From Amycolatopsis umgeniensis (GTDB lineage Bacteria > Actinomycetota > Actinomycetes > Mycobacteriales > Pseudonocardiaceae), in assembly GCF_014205155.1 (NCBI RefSeq), contig NZ_JACHMX010000001.1, positions 124,001-188,000 of the forward strand: a stretch of 64,000 bases of DNA, written 5' to 3'. The position numbers and the translations under genes are program-made. Each line of letters opens with the position of its first letter. The stretch's first letter is position 1. The notes beneath the pieces were generated by a model. The model was given only the letters and a program-made list of their open reading frames with translations, was not told the origin of the DNA and did not search any database. Shown here piece after piece: positions 18,150-26,113 of this stretch.

Positions 18150-18285
18150 GCCGGGTAGCGCGGGCACCACCTCCCGGAGTCGGGCTGTCCTCACCACGAA
18201 CCGGCGGGCTGGCCCGATGGTTCACGACGCCACGGACGGCGATGATCAACTCGATCGATCCGAAGTCGCCGAACGAAGGAAAAGT

Positions 18286-19107
18286 ATGTCGAGAGTAAAT
18301 TCCGCACGCCGCAACCTGGTCCGGGCCGCCGGTGTCGCGCTCGTAGGGGCTTTCTGCGCGATCGCGACGGCCGGGAGCGCCGACGCCGTGGTGAACGGGA
18401 GGAACTCGACCGAGCGTTACGAGTTCATGGCCTCGATCCCGGAGGTCGTGCCCGAAATGGGCAACGCCAAGGGGGTGTGCGGGGCGGTGCTTGTCCATCC
18501 GCAGTGGGTGGTGACCGCGGCACACTGCGTCGATCCGGAACGCAACCCCGCCAGGCCGGAAGGGACGGTGCGCATCGGCAGCCAGCGGCGGACTTCCGGC
18601 GGCACCGTACGCGAGATCGACCGCATGGTGCGTCATCCTGGCTACGAGCCGGGCGCGCCGAACAAGAACGACATCGCGCTGGTCCGCCTGGACCGCCCGG
18701 TCTTCCAGCGGCCGATCCGGATCGCCGATCGCCCCGGCCGCCCCGGCACGCCGACCCGCTTGATGGGCTTCGGCACCACGGTCGACACCGGCGACCTGAC
18801 CAAGGTGGTGTTCCCCGAACGGCTCCAGGAACTCAACACCCGCCGCGGTGCGGAATCCGAATGCTCGCCCGGCTACGCGGACTCGACCCGGCTGTGCACG
18901 ATCAGCCGCAAGCGCGACGCGATGGCGTGTATGGGCGATTCCGGCGGACCGCAGGTCCAGCGCGGGAGGGCAGGCCGCTGGGAGCTGATCGGCGTCACGT
19001 CCGGCCCCGGTGACGACGACGTTCCCTGCGCGAACGGACCCGGCCTCTACACCAGCGTGCCCGCCTACACCGATTGGATCGATCGCACCATCCACGCACG
19101 CGATTGA
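18286..19107 (+). CDS. Secreted trypsin-like serine protease (S1)
   Basis: A 273-residue protein starting MSRVNSARRNLVRAAGVALV at 18286 behind GAAGGAAAAG. The signal peptide ends GSADA, directly before VVNGRNSTERYEFMA, so the mature enzyme may start at the VVNG that matches trypsin's IVGG. Triad: His in TAAHC, Asp in KNDIALVRL, Ser in GDSGGP. Extra cysteines (VCGAV, SECSPG, RLCTI, MACMG, VPCAN) suggest three disulfides. It is the nearest protease upstream of the LanM locus, two small genes away, so a role in leader removal is conceivable but unproven. Confidence 0.92.
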   Translation: MSRVNSARRNLVRAAGVALVGAFCAIATAGSADAVVNGRNSTERYEFMASIPEVVPEMGNAKGVCGAVLVHPQWVVTAAHCVDPERNPARPEGTVRIGSQRRTSGGTVREIDRMVRHPGYEPGAPNKNDIALVRLDRPVFQRPIRIADRPGRPGTPTRLMGFGTTVDTGDLTKVVFPERLQELNTRRGAESECSPGYADSTRLCTISRKRDAMACMGDSGGPQVQRGRAGRWELIGVTSGPGDDDVPCANGPGLYTSVPAYTDWIDRTIHARD

Positions 19108-19697: not shown

Positions 19698-19814
19698 TTC
19701 GGGCGGTGAGCGTGCCCTCCCCCGTCGTCACTCTCCGGGCACCTTCGTGTGTGCGCTGAATGTGGGGGGCCCGCCCCCATGTGCGGGTCCGGCCGAGCTG
19801 AAAGCATCACTGCC

Positions 19815-22685
19815 GTGACGCCCCAGCTTCCGGCGACGTCCCTGCCGCTGAAGTGGTGGGCACACGGCCAGACCCCGCGCGAACGGACATCGGTCAAACC
19901 CGCTTGGGCGGATTTGACCGAACACGCCGTCACCACGCTTCTGCCGGAGCGCCCCCCAGTCGGTGACTGGTGTGTCGAGTTCGCCGGGGTCTTCAGGTCG
20001 TTCGTCCGGGCCGCCTGCCGCGACGCTGTCCCCGAGGACCTCGCCGGCGCGGATGTCGATGCGCTCCGCCGGGGTTTCGCGGCCCAACTCGACCAGCATC
20101 TGCTCAAGCTTTCGGTCCGCACGCTGGTCCTCGAACTCCACCGGGCCCGTAACGCAGGCGCCCTTGAGGGCGAGACTCCTGAAGAGCGCTTCTCGGACTT
20201 CGTGCGCCGTCAATCCACCCCAGCCGGCCTGGTCCGCCTGTTCGGCGAGTACCCGGTCCTGGCCCGGCTCGTCGCCCAGGCCTGCCTCTACGCGGCAGAG
20301 GCCCACGCCGAGATGCTGACCCGCTTCTCCGCCGACGCCGCCGCTCTGCCCGCCTCCGTGGCGGACGGCGAACTCGGAACGCTCGTCGAGGTGACGGGCG
20401 GGATCGGCGACTCGCACGCGCGGGGACGTGCGGTCAAACTGCTCCGCTTCTCGAGCGGCGCCAGGGTGGTTTACAAGCCCCGCCCGCTGATCCTGCACGA
20501 GCGCTTCAGCGACGTCGTCGAACGGCTCAACAAGCGGCTGCCCGGCCTCGAGCTGAGGACCGCCGACGCATTGCCGCGCGACGGCTACGGCTGGCTGCGG
20601 TTCGTCGAGCACCGGCCGTGCGCCGACATCGCCGACGTCGACCGCTTCTACCGCCGCCAGGGAATTCTGCTGGCGCTCCTGCACGCGCTCGACGCGACCG
20701 ACGTCCACTACGAGAACATCATCGCCAGCGGCGACCAGCCGGTGCTGATCGACATCGAGACGCTGTTCCAGCCGTCGCCGCCCGATCAGCCGGACGGTGA
20801 CCCCGCGGCGGCGATGCTCGCGCGGTCGGTGCAGCGCACGCTGCTGCTCCCCCAGCTCTTCGCCGGGGAGCACGGCGCCGTCGACATCTCCGGGCTCGCG
20901 GGCCGCGGCGGCAAACTGCCCACCGACCGGGTCGATTGGGCCGATCCCGGCACCGACCGGATGCGGCTGGTCCGCGTGCCCGGCGAGCTCTCGGGCGGGA
21001 ACAACCTCCCGCGTCTCGACGGCCGCGACGTCACCCCCGCCGAGCACAGCGCGGCGCTGCTGGCCGGATTCCGGCTCGGCTACGACGCGCTCTCCACCGC
21101 GCGGGACGAACTCGCCGAGCACCTCCGGCGCTGCGCCGACGACCCCATCCGGGTGCTCATCCGGCCGACGAACTTCTACTTCCGCCTGCTCGACGAAACC
21201 ACCCATCCCGATCTCCTGCGCGACGCCGCCGACCGCGACCGCGCGTTCGATCTGCTCGAAGAGGATTCGGCGGGCGAGGAGAAACTGCTCCGGCTCGTGC
21301 CGCACGAACGGGCCGACCTGTGGGCGGGCGACGTCCCGATGTTCACCTCGAACCCCGGTTCGACCTCGCTACTGGATTCGCGCGGCGACAGTGTCGAAGG
21401 CGTGGTGGACCGGCCGTCGCTGGACACGGTGCTGGCGAAGGTCGCCGACATGGACCCGCTCGACCAGCGTGATCAGGAATGGCTGATCTCGGCCACGCTC
21501 GCCATCAGCACGGCGACCGCCGGGCATCACGGCGGTGGCGAGACCGTGGAAACGGCGGTGCCGAACCAGGCTCCCGACGCGGAACGGCTGCTGATCACCG
21601 CTTGCGGCATCGCCGATCACATCGTCGCCAACGCCTTCTCCGACGAGCGCCGCTCCAACTGGCTCGGGATCGAACTCGTCGACGACCGCTACTGGACCGT
21701 GCTGCCGATGGGCGCGGGACTCGGCGAGGGCTACTGCGGGGTCGCGCTGTTCCTCGCCCAACTCGCCGAACTGACCGGGATAGCGCGCTACCGCGATCTG
21801 GCCGCGTACGCGATCACCCCGCTCCCCGGCCTCTTCGCCACTCTCCGGGCAGACCGTGAGCTGGCCGCCACCGCCGGTTGCGGCGGGCTGCTGGGGCTCG
21901 GCGGCGTCGCGTACACGATCGCCCGGCTCAGCACACTGGTCGGTCTTCCGGCGGGTGACCTCATCGAGCAGGCCGTCGACCTGATGCCCGACGCCGGGCC
22001 CGGCACGCCCTCCGGGTTCACGACGGGACTCGCGGGCGGTGTCGCCTCGATGCGCTCGGTGTATGTCCAAACAGGACTGGACTCGGCGCTGGCCAGAGCG
22101 GACCGCTACACCGAGCAGCTGCTCGACCGTGGGCGTCCACAAGAGACGGGCTTCGCCCGCGGTTCCGCCGGGGTCGACTGGGTCCTGCGGGCACACGACC
22201 GGACCGGCGAAGAACCGTCCGAAAAGGCGGACGACCGGACGGAAAGCACCACCGGCTGGTGCGACGGCCTCGCGGGTGCCGCTCTCGGCCTCGCGGCTCA
22301 CCTGCCCGATCCCGTTCACGCCGTGGAACTGGACCGGACGATCAAACGGCTGGCCGACGGGGCACCCCTGAAGGATCTCAGTCTTTGCCACGGCGAGTCC
22401 GGAGTGTCGGAAGTGTTGTGCGTGCTGGCGGAGAACGGGCACACTGGCGCCGCCGCCGCGGTGCGTCGCCGGACCGGTCATCTGCTCGCCGCCGTCGACC
22501 AGCGCGGTGCTCGCTGCGGGACTCCCGGCGCGGTCTCCGCGCCCGGGCTGCTGAGCGGTCTGGCGGGCATCGGCTACGGCCTGCTGCGGCTGGGATTCGG
22601 CGACCGGGTCCCGTCCGCGCTCCTGCTCCGCCCCGACCGCCCGCATCCGGCGGCCACCATCGTTCCACCGGCAAACCGAGTATGA
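19815..22685 (+). CDS. Class II lanthipeptide synthetase LanM
   Basis: About 956 residues from a GTG at 19815 (VTPQLPATSLPLKWWAHGQ). The frame is open from 19749, so the start is uncertain. The N-terminal dehydratase (DUF4135) shows GDSHARGRAV (about residue 198), the VYKPR lysine (about 221) and DVHYENIIASG followed by PVLIDIETLF (about 296), the phosphorylation and elimination residues known from CylM-type enzymes. The C-terminal LanC-like cyclase keeps its zinc ligands in GWCDGL (about 815) and LCHGESG (about 858). LanM phosphorylates and eliminates Ser/Thr of a precursor, then adds Cys thiols. The adjacent 64-residue peptide has no Cys, so the cyclase role is unclear. No transporter or dedicated protease is adjacent. 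Confidence 0.93.
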   Translation: MTPQLPATSLPLKWWAHGQTPRERTSVKPAWADLTEHAVTTLLPERPPVGDWCVEFAGVFRSFVRAACRDAVPEDLAGADVDALRRGFAAQLDQHLLKLSVRTLVLELHRARNAGALEGETPEERFSDFVRRQSTPAGLVRLFGEYPVLARLVAQACLYAAEAHAEMLTRFSADAAALPASVADGELGTLVEVTGGIGDSHARGRAVKLLRFSSGARVVYKPRPLILHERFSDVVERLNKRLPGLELRTADALPRDGYGWLRFVEHRPCADIADVDRFYRRQGILLALLHALDATDVHYENIIASGDQPVLIDIETLFQPSPPDQPDGDPAAAMLARSVQRTLLLPQLFAGEHGAVDISGLAGRGGKLPTDRVDWADPGTDRMRLVRVPGELSGGNNLPRLDGRDVTPAEHSAALLAGFRLGYDALSTARDELAEHLRRCADDPIRVLIRPTNFYFRLLDETTHPDLLRDAADRDRAFDLLEEDSAGEEKLLRLVPHERADLWAGDVPMFTSNPGSTSLLDSRGDSVEGVVDRPSLDTVLAKVADMDPLDQRDQEWLISATLAISTATAGHHGGGETVETAVPNQAPDAERLLITACGIADHIVANAFSDERRSNWLGIELVDDRYWTVLPMGAGLGEGYCGVALFLAQLAELTGIARYRDLAAYAITPLPGLFATLRADRELAATAGCGGLLGLGGVAYTIARLSTLVGLPAGDLIEQAVDLMPDAGPGTPSGFTTGLAGGVASMRSVYVQTGLDSALARADRYTEQLLDRGRPQETGFARGSAGVDWVLRAHDRTGEEPSEKADDRTESTTGWCDGLAGAALGLAAHLPDPVHAVELDRTIKRLADGAPLKDLSLCHGESGVSEVLCVLAENGHTGAAAAVRRRTGHLLAAVDQRGARCGTPGAVSAPGLLSGLAGIGYGLLRLGFGDRVPSALLLRPDRPHPAATIVPPANRV

Positions 22686-22698
22686 GGAGAAAAACCGC

Positions 22699-22893
22699 AT
22701 GTACGAAAGAGATCTGCCCGCCACCGAAGACGCCCTCGGCGCCGTGAACCTGCCGCGCGCCCTCGAGGTCGGCTCGCGCAACCACGCGCTGGCGGGCAGC
22801 AAGCCGCGGCTGAGCGCCAACCCGCTCGCCACCCTGTCCGGCGACCCCGGTTCGCCGTCCGTCGTCAGTGTCTTCACCGGCGGCTGGATCTGA
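22699..22893 (+). CDS. Putative Cys-free precursor peptide for LanM
   Basis: A 64-residue peptide starting MYERDLPATEDALGAVNLPR, with GAGGAG overlapping the LanM stop and its ATG 13 bases after it. The acidic first third fits a leader. The C-terminal third, LSGDPGSPSVVSVFTGGWI, is rich in Ser, Thr, Gly and hydrophobics, with Ser52, Ser54, Ser57 and Thr60 as possible dehydration sites. There is no cysteine anywhere, so no (methyl)lanthionine can form within it. Possible processing points are ALA before Gly33, the basic SKPR end at residue 37, or LSG at 46-48. It may yield a dehydrated linear peptide or use Lys35; it could also be a degenerate precursor. Confidence 0.7.
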   Translation: MYERDLPATEDALGAVNLPRALEVGSRNHALAGSKPRLSANPLATLSGDPGSPSVVSVFTGGWI

Positions 22894-22899
22894 GACCGG

Positions 22900-22934
22900 T
22901 CACGAAGGCGGGCTCGCGCCGCCCGCCTTCGTGA
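22900..22934. terminator. Terminator after the LanM-peptide pair
   Basis: A perfect 14-bp inverted repeat (arms 22900-22913 and 22921-22934, arm TCACGAAGGCGGGC) with a seven-base loop, six bases after the peptide stop. It separates the LanM/peptide transcript from the regulator gene. Confidence 0.8.
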
Positions 22935-22968
22935 TCAACTCTTCGCCGTAGCAGGGGAACCCGCTCGC

Positions 22969-22981: not shown

Positions 22982-25870
22982 GTGGGGATCCGTTCGTCGC
23001 GGGTGATCGGTCGCGACGCCGAACTGGCCGAGCTCTCCGGAGCTCTCGATCGCGCCATCGCCGGCCGCGGCGGCGCGATCTTTCTCGTGGGCGAAGGTGG
23101 GGTCGGCAAATCCCGGCTCGCGATCGAAGCCGCTTCGCGAGCGATCGCCTCGGACGTCCCGGTCCTGCAGGGCAGGGCCAGTTCGATCGGCCCGCTCGTC
23201 CCCTTCCGGCCGCTGACCCAGGCGCTGTTGTCGCATTTCCGAGGCGGCGGACCGCCCGAGGCGGCCGAACTCGACCCGTTCATCCCGGTACTCGCGCAGC
23301 TCGTCCCCGACTGGAGCCGAGGCGACCGGCCACGGGAATCGGGCTCCCTGATGGTGCTGGCCGAAGCGGTGTTCCGCCTGCTGGCCGTCACCAGCCGCGA
23401 CCGCGGCGCGCTCCTGGTCCTCGACGACCTGCAGGACGCCGACGCCGAAACTCTGTTCATCCTCGAGTACCTCGTCGACAACTTGCCCGCGGCGCAGGCC
23501 CTGTTCGTCGGCACGCTGCGCAACGAGCCCTCCGACGCCCTGCGCCTGGCGACCTCCGGCGCCCAGCGGATGAGCTGCGCCGTCCTCGAACTCGACAGGC
23601 TCGGCCTCGCCGACACCCGCGCTCTCGCCGCCGCCTGCTTGGAGACCGAGCCGGGGAACCTGCCGTCATCAGCGGCGGAGCTGTTGTGGCGCAACAGCGC
23701 CGGCCTGCCGTTCATCGTCGAGGAACTGCTTCACGGAATGGTGAACGACGGTCTGTTGGTCGAGAGCCGGGACGGCTGGCGCGTCATCGGCGAGCTCCGC
23801 GCCCGCGTACCCGCCGCGCTGGTCACCAGCTTCGGCGTCCGGATGGAACAACTCGGCGAGCAGGCGGGCGAGCTGCTTTCGGTCGCCGCGATCATCGGCC
23901 GCCGTTTCCCGCTGTCGGTCGTGCAAACGGTCACGGGCACGAACGACCGGACCCTGCACAACCACCTGAGCGCGGCGGTGTCGGCGAACCTGGTGACCAC
24001 CGACGAGACGACACCCGGTTGGTACGCCTTCCGGCATCCGCTGACCGCGGAGGCGCTGCTGGAGCGCCAAGCCCCGGCACGGAAGGCGGCGCTCGCCCGT
24101 CAGGCCGCCGATGCCGTCGAGAAGCTGTACCCGGGCCTGCCCGGCGATCTGTGCGCGCTCGTCGCGTCGCTGCGGCTGACAGCGCTGGACGAGCGGGCGG
24201 CGGGTCACCTGTTCGCGGAAACCGGTCGCCGCGCCCTCGACGCCGGTGCCGCGGACTCCGCGGTCACGATGCTCACCAAGGCCGTCGACCTGCTGTCCGG
24301 GGCCGACGCGGGTGATCGGGCCGAGGTGCTGGAGACGCTGCTGTACGCACTCGGGCAAACCGGCCAATTCGACCGCGCCGTCGAACTGTCCGCGGGTTTC
24401 GGCGAGATCGGGACACTCGAACGAGCCGCCAAACTGCACACCCAGCTGGCGTGGGCCGCCTACATCGCCGGGCGGCACGACGAATGCCTCGGCCAGATCG
24501 AACGCGCCCGCGCTCCCCTGGGTTCGGCGATCTCGCCTGCTCAGCAAGCCGCGCTCGACGCCGTCGAAGCGAATCTCTGGCTCGACGTCCCCGGCCGGAC
24601 AGGCACCGCGGAACGGCTCGCGCGCCAGGCCTGGAAAGTGGCCGAGGAGACCGAGCAGCCCTTCGTCGTCTGCCAGGCTCTTCAAGTGCTCGGCATGCTC
24701 GCGCTGCCGCGGGACCTCACCGAGTCCGAGCACTACATGCAGCTCGCACGGCGGACCGCCGAGGACAACCACCTGCACCACCTCCGCACCCAGGCACTGG
24801 TCCGGCTCGGCGGGCATCGCGTGCTGATGAACGGCGACGAACAGACCCTGCTGCTCGCCCGCGCCGACGCCCAGCGGCACGGCTCGATCACGCTGCACTG
24901 CGCCGTTGACGCCGTGCGCACCATGCACGCCGTCCTGCGCTGCGAGTTCGGGACGGCGCACGAGCTGCTGGAGGAGAACCTCGCCGTACTCGGCAGGCTC
25001 CGGTTGACCGCGTTGCTGCAGTACGCGCATATGACCAGGGCGATGTCGGCCGGACACCGGGCGGACCGTCCGGCGATGGAACAGGCGCTCGAGGACTTCC
25101 GGGAAAGCGGTGGCGAGAACGCGCAAGAGAAGGTGCTCAGCATCGGGCTGGCGCGTGTCTTCTGCTCACTGCTCGAGGAGGACTTCGACCGCGCGCGCCG
25201 GGAACTCGAGCAGGTGACCGAGCTGGAGGACCTGCGGCCGAGCCGGTTCCACCTCGCCGGCCAGCACGGCCTCAGGACGCTCGTCGACACCCTCGGCGGC
25301 GCCGACTGCCCGGAAACCGGATCCGCCGTGAGCGGGATGCGATGGAACCGGCAGTTCGTCGAATTCGCGCACGCCGTCGAACACGGCAGACGAGGCGACG
25401 CGGCGGAAGCCGGCCGGTCGGTGGCCGCCGCGCTGGAGACGTCCGCGCCCTACCCCCTGGCCCGGCACCTCGGGCTCCGGCTGATCGCCGAACCGGCCGC
25501 CGCCGACGGCTGGGGCGATCCCGCGGGCTGGCTCAAGGAGGCCGAGGAGTACTTCCACGGCAGGGACATCCAGGCGGTCGCCGGCGCCTGCCGGAGCCTG
25601 CTGCGCAAGCTCGGCGCGCCCGTCCGGCAGCGGCGGGCGGGTGTCGACCGGGTCCCCGGCGACCTGCGCGCGTCCGGTGTGACCGTGCGCGAGTACGAGG
25701 TGCTGGTGCTGCTCGCCGAGCGGATGGGCAACAAGGACATCGGCACCCGGCTGCACATCTCTCCCCGGACGGTCGAGAAACACGTGGCGAGCCTGCTCGC
25801 CAAAACCGGGCTCGCCGACCGGTCGGCCCTCGCCGAACACGCCGCCGCACTGCGACCTGGCATGCTGTGA
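22982..25870 (+). CDS. Large ATP-binding LuxR-family (LAL) transcriptional regulator
   Basis: A 962-residue protein from GTG 22982 (VGIRSSRVIGRDAELAELSG). An N-terminal STAND-type ATPase holds Walker A GEGGVGKS (37-44) and Walker B GALLVLDDLQD (about 139-149). The middle is a long helical, TPR-like region (residues about 400-850). The last 65 residues are the LuxR HTH (GVTVREYEVLVLLAERMGNK, then GTRLHISPRTVEKHVASLL). LAL proteins are pathway activators, often in natural-product loci; position directly after the LanM/peptide pair makes that pair its likely target. It starts its own transcript and is followed, three bases after its stop, by a glutaredoxin-like gene. Confidence 0.93.
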   Translation: MGIRSSRVIGRDAELAELSGALDRAIAGRGGAIFLVGEGGVGKSRLAIEAASRAIASDVPVLQGRASSIGPLVPFRPLTQALLSHFRGGGPPEAAELDPFIPVLAQLVPDWSRGDRPRESGSLMVLAEAVFRLLAVTSRDRGALLVLDDLQDADAETLFILEYLVDNLPAAQALFVGTLRNEPSDALRLATSGAQRMSCAVLELDRLGLADTRALAAACLETEPGNLPSSAAELLWRNSAGLPFIVEELLHGMVNDGLLVESRDGWRVIGELRARVPAALVTSFGVRMEQLGEQAGELLSVAAIIGRRFPLSVVQTVTGTNDRTLHNHLSAAVSANLVTTDETTPGWYAFRHPLTAEALLERQAPARKAALARQAADAVEKLYPGLPGDLCALVASLRLTALDERAAGHLFAETGRRALDAGAADSAVTMLTKAVDLLSGADAGDRAEVLETLLYALGQTGQFDRAVELSAGFGEIGTLERAAKLHTQLAWAAYIAGRHDECLGQIERARAPLGSAISPAQQAALDAVEANLWLDVPGRTGTAERLARQAWKVAEETEQPFVVCQALQVLGMLALPRDLTESEHYMQLARRTAEDNHLHHLRTQALVRLGGHRVLMNGDEQTLLLARADAQRHGSITLHCAVDAVRTMHAVLRCEFGTAHELLEENLAVLGRLRLTALLQYAHMTRAMSAGHRADRPAMEQALEDFRESGGENAQEKVLSIGLARVFCSLLEEDFDRARRELEQVTELEDLRPSRFHLAGQHGLRTLVDTLGGADCPETGSAVSGMRWNRQFVEFAHAVEHGRRGDAAEAGRSVAAALETSAPYPLARHLGLRLIAEPAAADGWGDPAGWLKEAEEYFHGRDIQAVAGACRSLLRKLGAPVRQRRAGVDRVPGDLRASGVTVREYEVLVLLAERMGNKDIGTRLHISPRTVEKHVASLLAKTGLADRSALAEHAAALRPGML

Positions 25871-25873
25871 TCC

Positions 25874-26113
25874 ATGAGCGACCTCACCGTGTACGGCGCC
25901 GGCTGGTGCCCCGACGTCAAACGCAGCCGCGCCCTGCTCGACTCGAAGGGTGTCGAGTACGCCTACCTCGACGTCGAAGCGGACGCCGGTGCCGAAGAGA
26001 CCGTGCGCGGACTGCAGAACGGTGAACGGCGGATCCCGACCATCGTCTGGCCGGACGGCACCCACCTGGTCGAACCGAGCGACGACGAGCTCACCGCGCA
26101 TCTGAACCGATGA
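25874..26113 (+). CDS. Glutaredoxin-like protein with a single active-site cysteine
   Basis: A 79-residue protein starting MSDLTVYGAGWCPDVKRSRA. It has the thioredoxin fold pattern of mycoredoxin/NrdH-type glutaredoxins: YGAGWCPD at the active site, the cis-Pro region RRIPTIVWPDG, and a C-terminal LVEPSDDELTAHL helix. The usual CPYC pair is CPDV here, so only the N-terminal cysteine is present, as in monothiol enzymes. It begins three bases after the regulator stop, and its own stop overlaps the next ATG, so the three genes form an operon. Confidence 0.88.
   Translation: MSDLTVYGAGWCPDVKRSRALLDSKGVEYAYLDVEADAGAEETVRGLQNGERRIPTIVWPDGTHLVEPSDDELTAHLNR

Follow-up and report, generated by a model that had tools for sequence, protein, structure and literature searches.

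A widespread actinomycete gene cassette of a LanM-type synthetase, mostly cysteine-free precursor peptides and a LAL-type regulator

The question addressed here is what a class II lanthipeptide synthetase (LanM) might make of a substrate that holds no cysteine. It is raised by a 64,000-nucleotide stretch of the Amycolatopsis umgeniensis genome (contig NZ_JACHMX010000001.1, positions 124,001 to 188,000; hereafter called the window), in which a LanM gene is followed by the gene for a 64-residue precursor-like peptide, MYERDLPATEDALGAVNLPRALEVGSRNHALAGSKPRLSANPLATLSGDPGSPSVVSVFTGGWI. Lanthipeptides are defined by (methyl)lanthionine formed from Ser or Thr and Cys of the core peptide, and judged by its Cys-free sequence this peptide would fall outside the definition. 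An initial annotation of the same DNA had described both genes and proposed that LanM only dehydrates, that another nucleophile such as Lys35 is used, that a Cys-containing peptide is encoded elsewhere, or that the precursor is degenerate; it mentioned neither the gene for a LAL-type LuxR regulator further downstream nor the size of the family to which the locus belongs.

By comparison with other genomes the locus is one instance of a cassette, consisting of LanM, one to three small peptides and a LAL-type LuxR regulator in this order, that is widespread in actinomycetes. On balance we consider it probable that a class II-like dehydration results in a peptide bearing dehydroalanine (Dha) and dehydrobutyrine (Dhb) and devoid of lanthionine, and that the zinc-bound cyclase domain of the synthetase is kept for another role. 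The family supplies many natural examples of a retained zinc site combined with loss of both the catalytic acid and the substrate Cys, which make a role of LanC domains apart from thioether formation directly testable, and its products may represent a class of dehydroamino-acid peptides without a described member in the literature searched.

Conservation and distribution of the cassette

A LanM match was found in 53 of 80 genomes of the genus, that of the window included. By LanM identity the loci fall into tiers: 19 (again including the window's) at 88-100%, 12 at 59-60%, a third group at 45-48% of which nine are full-length and four partial, and the remainder below that. Conservation of the Cys-free 64-mer at orthologous loci had been set beforehand as a test, and the peptide is indeed present at all 19 close loci, where it starts 12 to 14 bases 3' of LanM; the distance of 13 nucleotides from the LanM stop codon given in the initial annotation for the window is correct. 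Likewise, each of the 12 loci at 59-60% identity has between one and three peptides, with as many as three in tandem, and their cores are Cys-free; at those loci of the 45-48% group that were fetched whole the peptides end, e.g., in VTMDISTVVSNHTHA or TTVSAPGGGSL. It is this conservation (19 of 19 close loci, 78 of 101 classed ones) that renders the missing Cys meaningful, as in one 64-mer alone it would be unremarkable.

The third member of the cassette codes for a large protein with an N-terminal ATPase and a C-terminal LuxR-type helix-turn-helix (HTH) domain, the hallmark of LAL regulators. As the clustering of neighbourhoods at 27 wide loci was muddled by antisense open reading frame shadows over LanM and LAL, the counts for this gene rest on tblastn, by which it was detected at all 11 other wide loci of the genus. 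Downstream of LanM and in the same orientation it was present in 69 of another 74 sampled cassette loci; for the named genomes the figure is 78 of 79, and the one locus without it sits on a contig of 4.6 kb. The named-genome and sampled sets share genomes, and their counts are therefore not additive. No LAL match was present at the loci of other LanMs examined in this respect (L047, L048, L049, L051 and L123; 4 genes).

Beyond the genus, a family-level sample of 390 genomes contained 166 with a LanM match of any kind, and 58 of these loci from 11 other genus groups were fetched. An even draw of 394 genomes of the class contained 40 with a LanM match, of which three besides the window's own reached at least 45% identity. 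Among the best 80 of 242 relatives, the cassette-bearing records carry 16 actinomycete genus names, including Amycolatopsis, Saccharothrix, Lentzea, Kutzneria, Kibdelosporangium, Kribbella, Micromonospora and Streptomyces, and the closest named relatives of the window locus are from Amycolatopsis; one cassette in this set resides in a metagenome bin titled Melainabacteria. In a FastTree reconstruction, the 106 cassette LanMs stand apart from nine other LanMs (support 100). Because of a long-branch warning this tree was used for grouping only, and the partial sequence L043 was excluded from all LanM alignments.

The precursor family

The peptides of the cassette share a leader motif resembling GxRxxALxG, the generality of which is partly a matter of construction since the motif also served to find them. 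Of the 106 cassette LanMs, five (L072, L118, L124, L125, L126) are without a classed peptide, and three loci (L065, L070, L096) were classed by hand; the 101 classed loci comprise 78 with Cys-free cores and 23 with Cys, 16 of the latter being of a TTCC type. In the named genomes the corresponding figures are 67 and 11 of 79 loci. Twelve of these 79 gave no pattern match, one of them (L259) lying on a short contig; the other 11 were read by eye, which revealed Cys-free cores in nine, Cys in one of two peptides at L233 and Cys in both peptides at L238. The term Cys-free here refers to the core following the leader motif. At six of the 78 loci (L026, L033, L035, L085, L093, L094) and at the named loci L204, L226 and L262, the longest reading frame does have a Cys ahead of the core, and in several of these frames it probably lies before the true start.

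The most conspicuous element of the cores is a motif [ST]V(V)[ST], represented by SVVS in the window, which is found in 81 of 101 distinct Cys-free cores as opposed to 20.1 expected from shuffles of each core, a comparison uncorrected for kinship. Amongst the 19 close loci Ser39, Thr45, Ser47, Ser52, Ser54 and Ser57 do not vary. Of the possible dehydration sites named in the initial annotation (Ser52, Ser54, Ser57 and Thr60), Thr60 is not constant, being replaced by Ala at four loci and by Ser at one. The ratio of nonsynonymous to synonymous substitution rates (dN/dS) over the same loci is 0.22 for the whole peptide, 0.19 for residues 1-33 and 0.23 for residues 34-64, i.e., the core. The search of the Pfam and NCBIfam models returned no match for the window peptide, that of NCBIfam none for two of its relatives either, and its four database relatives have neither a precomputed Pfam domain nor a name.

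That the locus might be a relic, whose substrate lost Cys together with its function, appears highly improbable. The loss of the catalytic-acid His from the synthetase (see below) and the absence of a constant transporter or protease neighbour could be taken as signs of decay, but the dN/dS values of the peptide (0.22) and of the two LanM domains (about 0.17 each), together with a three-gene order that is conserved in 78 of 79 named loci, speak against it. By the same token, the proposal of a degenerate precursor is disfavoured by the dN/dS of peptide and core and by synteny.

A further way out would be a Cys-containing partner encoded elsewhere, with lanthionine formed within or between the two peptides. 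Cys-free and TTCC cassettes do occur together in one genome, as is the case for L064 with L067 and L094 with L095. However, the 9.2-Mb window genome contains a single DUF4135 match, and a profile built from 14 precursor sequences, for which 150 of 413 candidates were scored, retrieved the window peptide (E = 2e-17) and no other match better than E = 0.04, this latter one sitting inside a 236-residue frame that reads like a nucleotidyltransferase. Accordingly, the initial suggestion of such a peptide gains no support from either search, and we regard a partner peptide as improbable.

As to nucleophiles other than Cys, Lys35 is invariant among the 19 close loci but varies across the family. Lys or His as a family-wide nucleophile was rejected, given that 60 of the 101 distinct Cys-free cores have neither, and four are even devoid of K, H, R, Y, D, E and C; the role assigned to Lys35 by the initial annotation thus fails for the family as a whole. 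This bears on the possibility that the cyclase domain forms a crosslink other than a thioether, for example between two dehydrated residues of SVVS or TTVS or, once the leader has been removed, with the amino group of the N-terminus. In its favour, the element most often shared by the otherwise diverse cores is a short motif whose two Ser/Thr are spaced by two or three positions, and the zinc ligands are retained; against it, no Lys or His is conserved, and no precedent was found in the literature consulted. We therefore judge a crosslink of this kind unlikely.

The dehydratase domain and a proposed route

The LanM of the window matches the NCBIfam model lanti_2_LanM with 680.6 bits (E = 2.9e-204) and contains the Pfam domains PF13575 (DUF4135) and PF05147; an in-frame GTG at position 19749 would be a possible, longer start. 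Its dehydratase motifs align with those in the solved structures of CylM and LicM2, so that it possesses the DUF4135 dehydratase domain with catalytic residues typical of class II enzymes, as the initial annotation had stated, and we take the roles of the motif residues to be those of their counterparts in this alignment. In 115 aligned LanMs the D, H, N, D and R of the motif are unchanged throughout, while the T position holds T in 105 and S in 10, and the K position K in 92, R in 21 and Q in two.

On this basis, LanM would phosphorylate and then eliminate Ser and Thr residues near the C-terminus of the peptide, chiefly in [ST]V(V)[ST], and the product after a presumed leader cut would be a linear peptide bearing Dha or Dhb, in which lanthionine is not to be expected because the peptide has no Cys. 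The cyclase domain with its zinc site would serve as a folded unit for holding the substrate or assisting dehydration, and not as a thia-Michael cyclase. Export might be served by an unlinked system; for the LAL protein, control of the cassette or a response to its product is the most likely role. As far as sequence comparison can tell, a LanM that only dehydrates would hence be the best supported of the options initially put forward. There is a parallel in CcaM, an enzyme of dehydrazole synthesis, whose fused cyclase domain is required for dehydration and in which no lanthionine is formed (PMC10676384).

A cyclase domain with its zinc site kept and its acid mostly replaced

The LanC-type zinc ligands of class II enzymes are present in the window LanM as Cys816, Cys858 and His859, in agreement with the initial annotation; the catalytic-acid His is not, its position being occupied by Arg782, and the cyclase part therefore retains its metal site though not its full set of catalytic residues. 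Both features extend to the family. Of the three zinc ligands, the first Cys and the His are each present in 149 of 151 distinct cassette LanMs and the second Cys in 150, whereas the acid position is held by Arg (76), His (25), Asp (19) or Trp (14), the rest having other residues or a gap. In contrast, LanMs from outside the cassette that were aligned with its members (30 control loci taken, six without a usable frame) have His at this position in 24 of 24. A similar divide is seen at the residue after the first zinc Cys, which is His in 21 of these 24 as compared to five of the 151 cassette LanMs, where Ser, Asp, Ala, Thr, Gly or Glu prevail.

In LanC enzymes the His of motif 4 has been assigned as the acid protonating the enolate, and its mutation is reported to impair catalysis by NisC, SpaC, LctM, ProcM and LanCL (PMC9934072). 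At the residue after the first zinc Cys, LanCL1 carries His277, which stabilises the enolate, and this position varies among working enzymes (PMC9934072). The acid held to run the thia-Michael addition is thus mostly replaced in the cassette, in Cys-free and Cys-bearing members alike: Arg, Trp or Phe stand at this site in 60 of the 78 Cys-free loci, and His is retained in 16 of them and in three of the 23 Cys-bearing ones. At the same time the cyclase domain is not decaying, its dN/dS among the 19 close loci being 0.165 as against 0.174 for the dehydratase part.

Several observations weigh against dehydration without cyclisation and with the cyclase domain as a mere support. The retention of His at 16 Cys-free loci and its scarcity at Cys-bearing ones mean that the losses of substrate Cys and of the acid are not tightly linked. 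Cys-bearing cores at 23 of 101 classed loci, and the Cys that shortly precedes a TTT- or TTS-type motif at L233 and L238, imply that thioether formation may persist in part of the family. In 23 of 115 LanMs, though not in that of the window, Arg or Gln stands in place of the dehydratase Lys. The LAL gene has the reverse orientation at L044, L045, L046 and L120, and at the partial L043 the contig ends. Above all, the zinc triad found in nearly all members suggests, as far as sequences go, a metal chemistry beyond that of a scaffold; since the cyclase domain of CcaM has no zinc ligands, strict zinc retention is the point that the favoured explanation covers least.

As the zinc site is kept even though the acid residue is not, the cyclase domain may have another job, and because a scaffold role explains this retention poorly we allow a smaller chance, doubtful yet worth entertaining, that throughout the clade the zinc site works on the dehydro residues of [ST]V(V)[ST], by addition of a small thiol or by a non-sulfur crosslink, and that the product is read by the LAL regulator. 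In its first form, the zinc would bind mycothiol or another small thiol and add it to Dha or Dhb, as human LanCL enzymes do with glutathione. Near-invariant zinc ligands in a clade with mostly Cys-free substrates, purifying selection on the cyclase domain, the LanCL precedent of intermolecular addition (PMC9934072) and a glutaredoxin-like gene three bases after the LAL gene of the window are all consistent with such a reaction. However, an enolate-protonating acid exchanged for Arg, Trp or Phe at 60 of 78 Cys-free loci does not suit it, and the glutaredoxin-like gene is limited to three of the 11 other wide loci, namely the three close ones, and missing from the eight more distant, so that we consider addition of an external thiol fairly unlikely.

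The Cys-bearing members are largely found together: 21 of the 23 loci fall into one group of the tree, and the minimum number of changes between Cys-free and Cys-bearing states is three. Most of them have TTCC (L067, L086-L089, L091, L095, L097, L099-L101, L103, L113-L116) or STCC precursors (L096, L121), with two adjacent Cys, and the acid His of the LanMs at loci of these types is mostly Asp or Asn. The peptide of L121, starting 56 bases after LanM, contains SVVSV and STCC, as if bridging both types. In the Streptomyces-titled L238 a Cys precedes ITTSVS or ITTTVS in both peptides, and one core at L220 (Saccharothrix) has a C-terminal Cys. The arrangement of Cys N-terminal to a TTVS-like motif, which L238 shares with the first peptide of the Kribbella-titled L233, resembles the reverse-labionin-like C.S..S pattern described in PMC11251773. 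Finally, L044-L046 encode diverged LanMs with Phe at the acid position and Cys-free peptides ending in PSTVAGLS-like sequences, next to LAL genes in opposite orientation.

Relation to known systems

Cys-free LanM substrates as such are already known in principle. With class II enzymes such as CylM and LicM2 the window locus shares the dehydratase catalytic motifs, the C, C, H zinc ligands of LanC and the double-Gly-like end of the leader; it differs by the Cys-free core, the replaced acid His, the dedicated LAL regulator and a cassette without a constant transporter or protease neighbour. A LanM-type enzyme with Cys-free precursors is likewise found in cyanotins and prochlorosin-like systems (PMC7268733, PMC11356792), which are cyanobacterial and, in the case described in PMC11356792, have a Nif11-related leader and altered zinc ligands. 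A Nif11-type leader is not indicated for the window peptide, which has no Pfam or NCBIfam match, and the closest named relatives are from Amycolatopsis.

Clusters with both LanM and LanKC have been reported to contain LanM-associated precursors without Cys (PMC7268733), and a Streptomyces subfamily C of six peptides comes from clusters with type II and type III cyclases and an extra Cys-free peptide (PMC11251773). Compared by these descriptions, the likeness consists in a LanM with a Cys-free peptide, whereas no LanKC is encoded beside the window locus: a search of the genome for LanC domains gave other matches at 4.87 and 8.71 Mb only, as opposed to 0.14 Mb for LanM. The former (L176) is a class III LanKC-like protein and the latter (L173) a stand-alone LanC-like protein with FSHG and WCHG motifs, both unlinked to the LanM locus.

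To the dehydrazole enzymes CcaM/LanMbC (PMC10676384) the window LanM is comparable in that a DUF4135 dehydratase would yield dehydro residues without lanthionine. It is set apart from them by the zinc ligands, which the CcaM cyclase domain lacks; nor was a YcaO partner seen among the Pfam-scanned neighbours, a scan that covered part of the window genes.

The LanM-peptide-LAL cassette was not found in the literature searched, which was confined to open-licence papers, and neither was the combination of a LAL regulator, a [ST]V(V)[ST] core, a zinc site kept with the acid mostly lost, and such a wide spread. Two published mining studies depend on Cys in the precursor: open reading frames without Cys in the estimated core are dropped in PMC7268733, and one or more Cys are required of candidate precursors in PMC11251773, so that by these procedures the cassette family would be skipped.

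Neighbouring genes and the intergenic hairpin

The coordinates of all features are collected in Table 1.

Table 1. Features of the LanM locus, in positions of the window
Feature	Position	Strand	Basis or remark
Trypsin-like protease gene, upstream of LanM	18217-19107
LanM-type synthetase, 956 aa	19815..22685	+	GTG start at 19815
Dehydratase domain (DUF4135/PF13575)	20250..21350	+	Pfam, alignment
Arg782 codon, site of LanC catalytic-acid His (NisC His212, CylM His835)	22158..22160	+
Zinc-ligand motifs WCDG (Cys816) and LCHG (Cys858, His859)	22260..22391	+	alignment
Cys-free precursor-like peptide, 64 aa	22699..22893	+	reading frame
Leader motif GSRNHALAG, form of family GxRxxALxG	22771..22797	+
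Presumed core SKPRLSANPLATLSGDPGSPSVVSVFTGGWI	22798..22890	+	boundary inferred from double-Gly-like motif
SVVS, local form of [ST]V(V)[ST] core motif	22858..22869	+
Hairpin with 16-bp stem, without T-run	22898..22936	.	region z -3.5
LAL-type LuxR regulator, 962 aa	22982..25870	+	AAA_16 7-174, GerE HTH 901-954

Apart from the LAL gene and leaving the antisense shadows aside, the commonest neighbour families occur at six of 27 wide loci, and amongst the wide loci examined no transporter or protease gene is a constant neighbour. The trypsin-like protease gene and a major facilitator superfamily gene upstream of LanM were considered as leader protease and exporter of the cassette and rejected, as they recur at one of the 11 other wide loci (L053). 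On the far side of the LAL gene, the glutaredoxin-like gene (25874-26113) is followed by an overlapping small gene of the SH3_Rv0428c type.

Between peptide and regulator genes lies a hairpin which the initial annotation had taken for a terminator closing the transcript. A strong hairpin is indeed present, but it lacks a T-run and is absent from the output of the terminator scan, and a gene on the same strand begins 3' of it at 22982. It may be a terminator or an attenuator. Long stems at this spot were seen at all seven close loci sampled, though not in all sampled members of the family.

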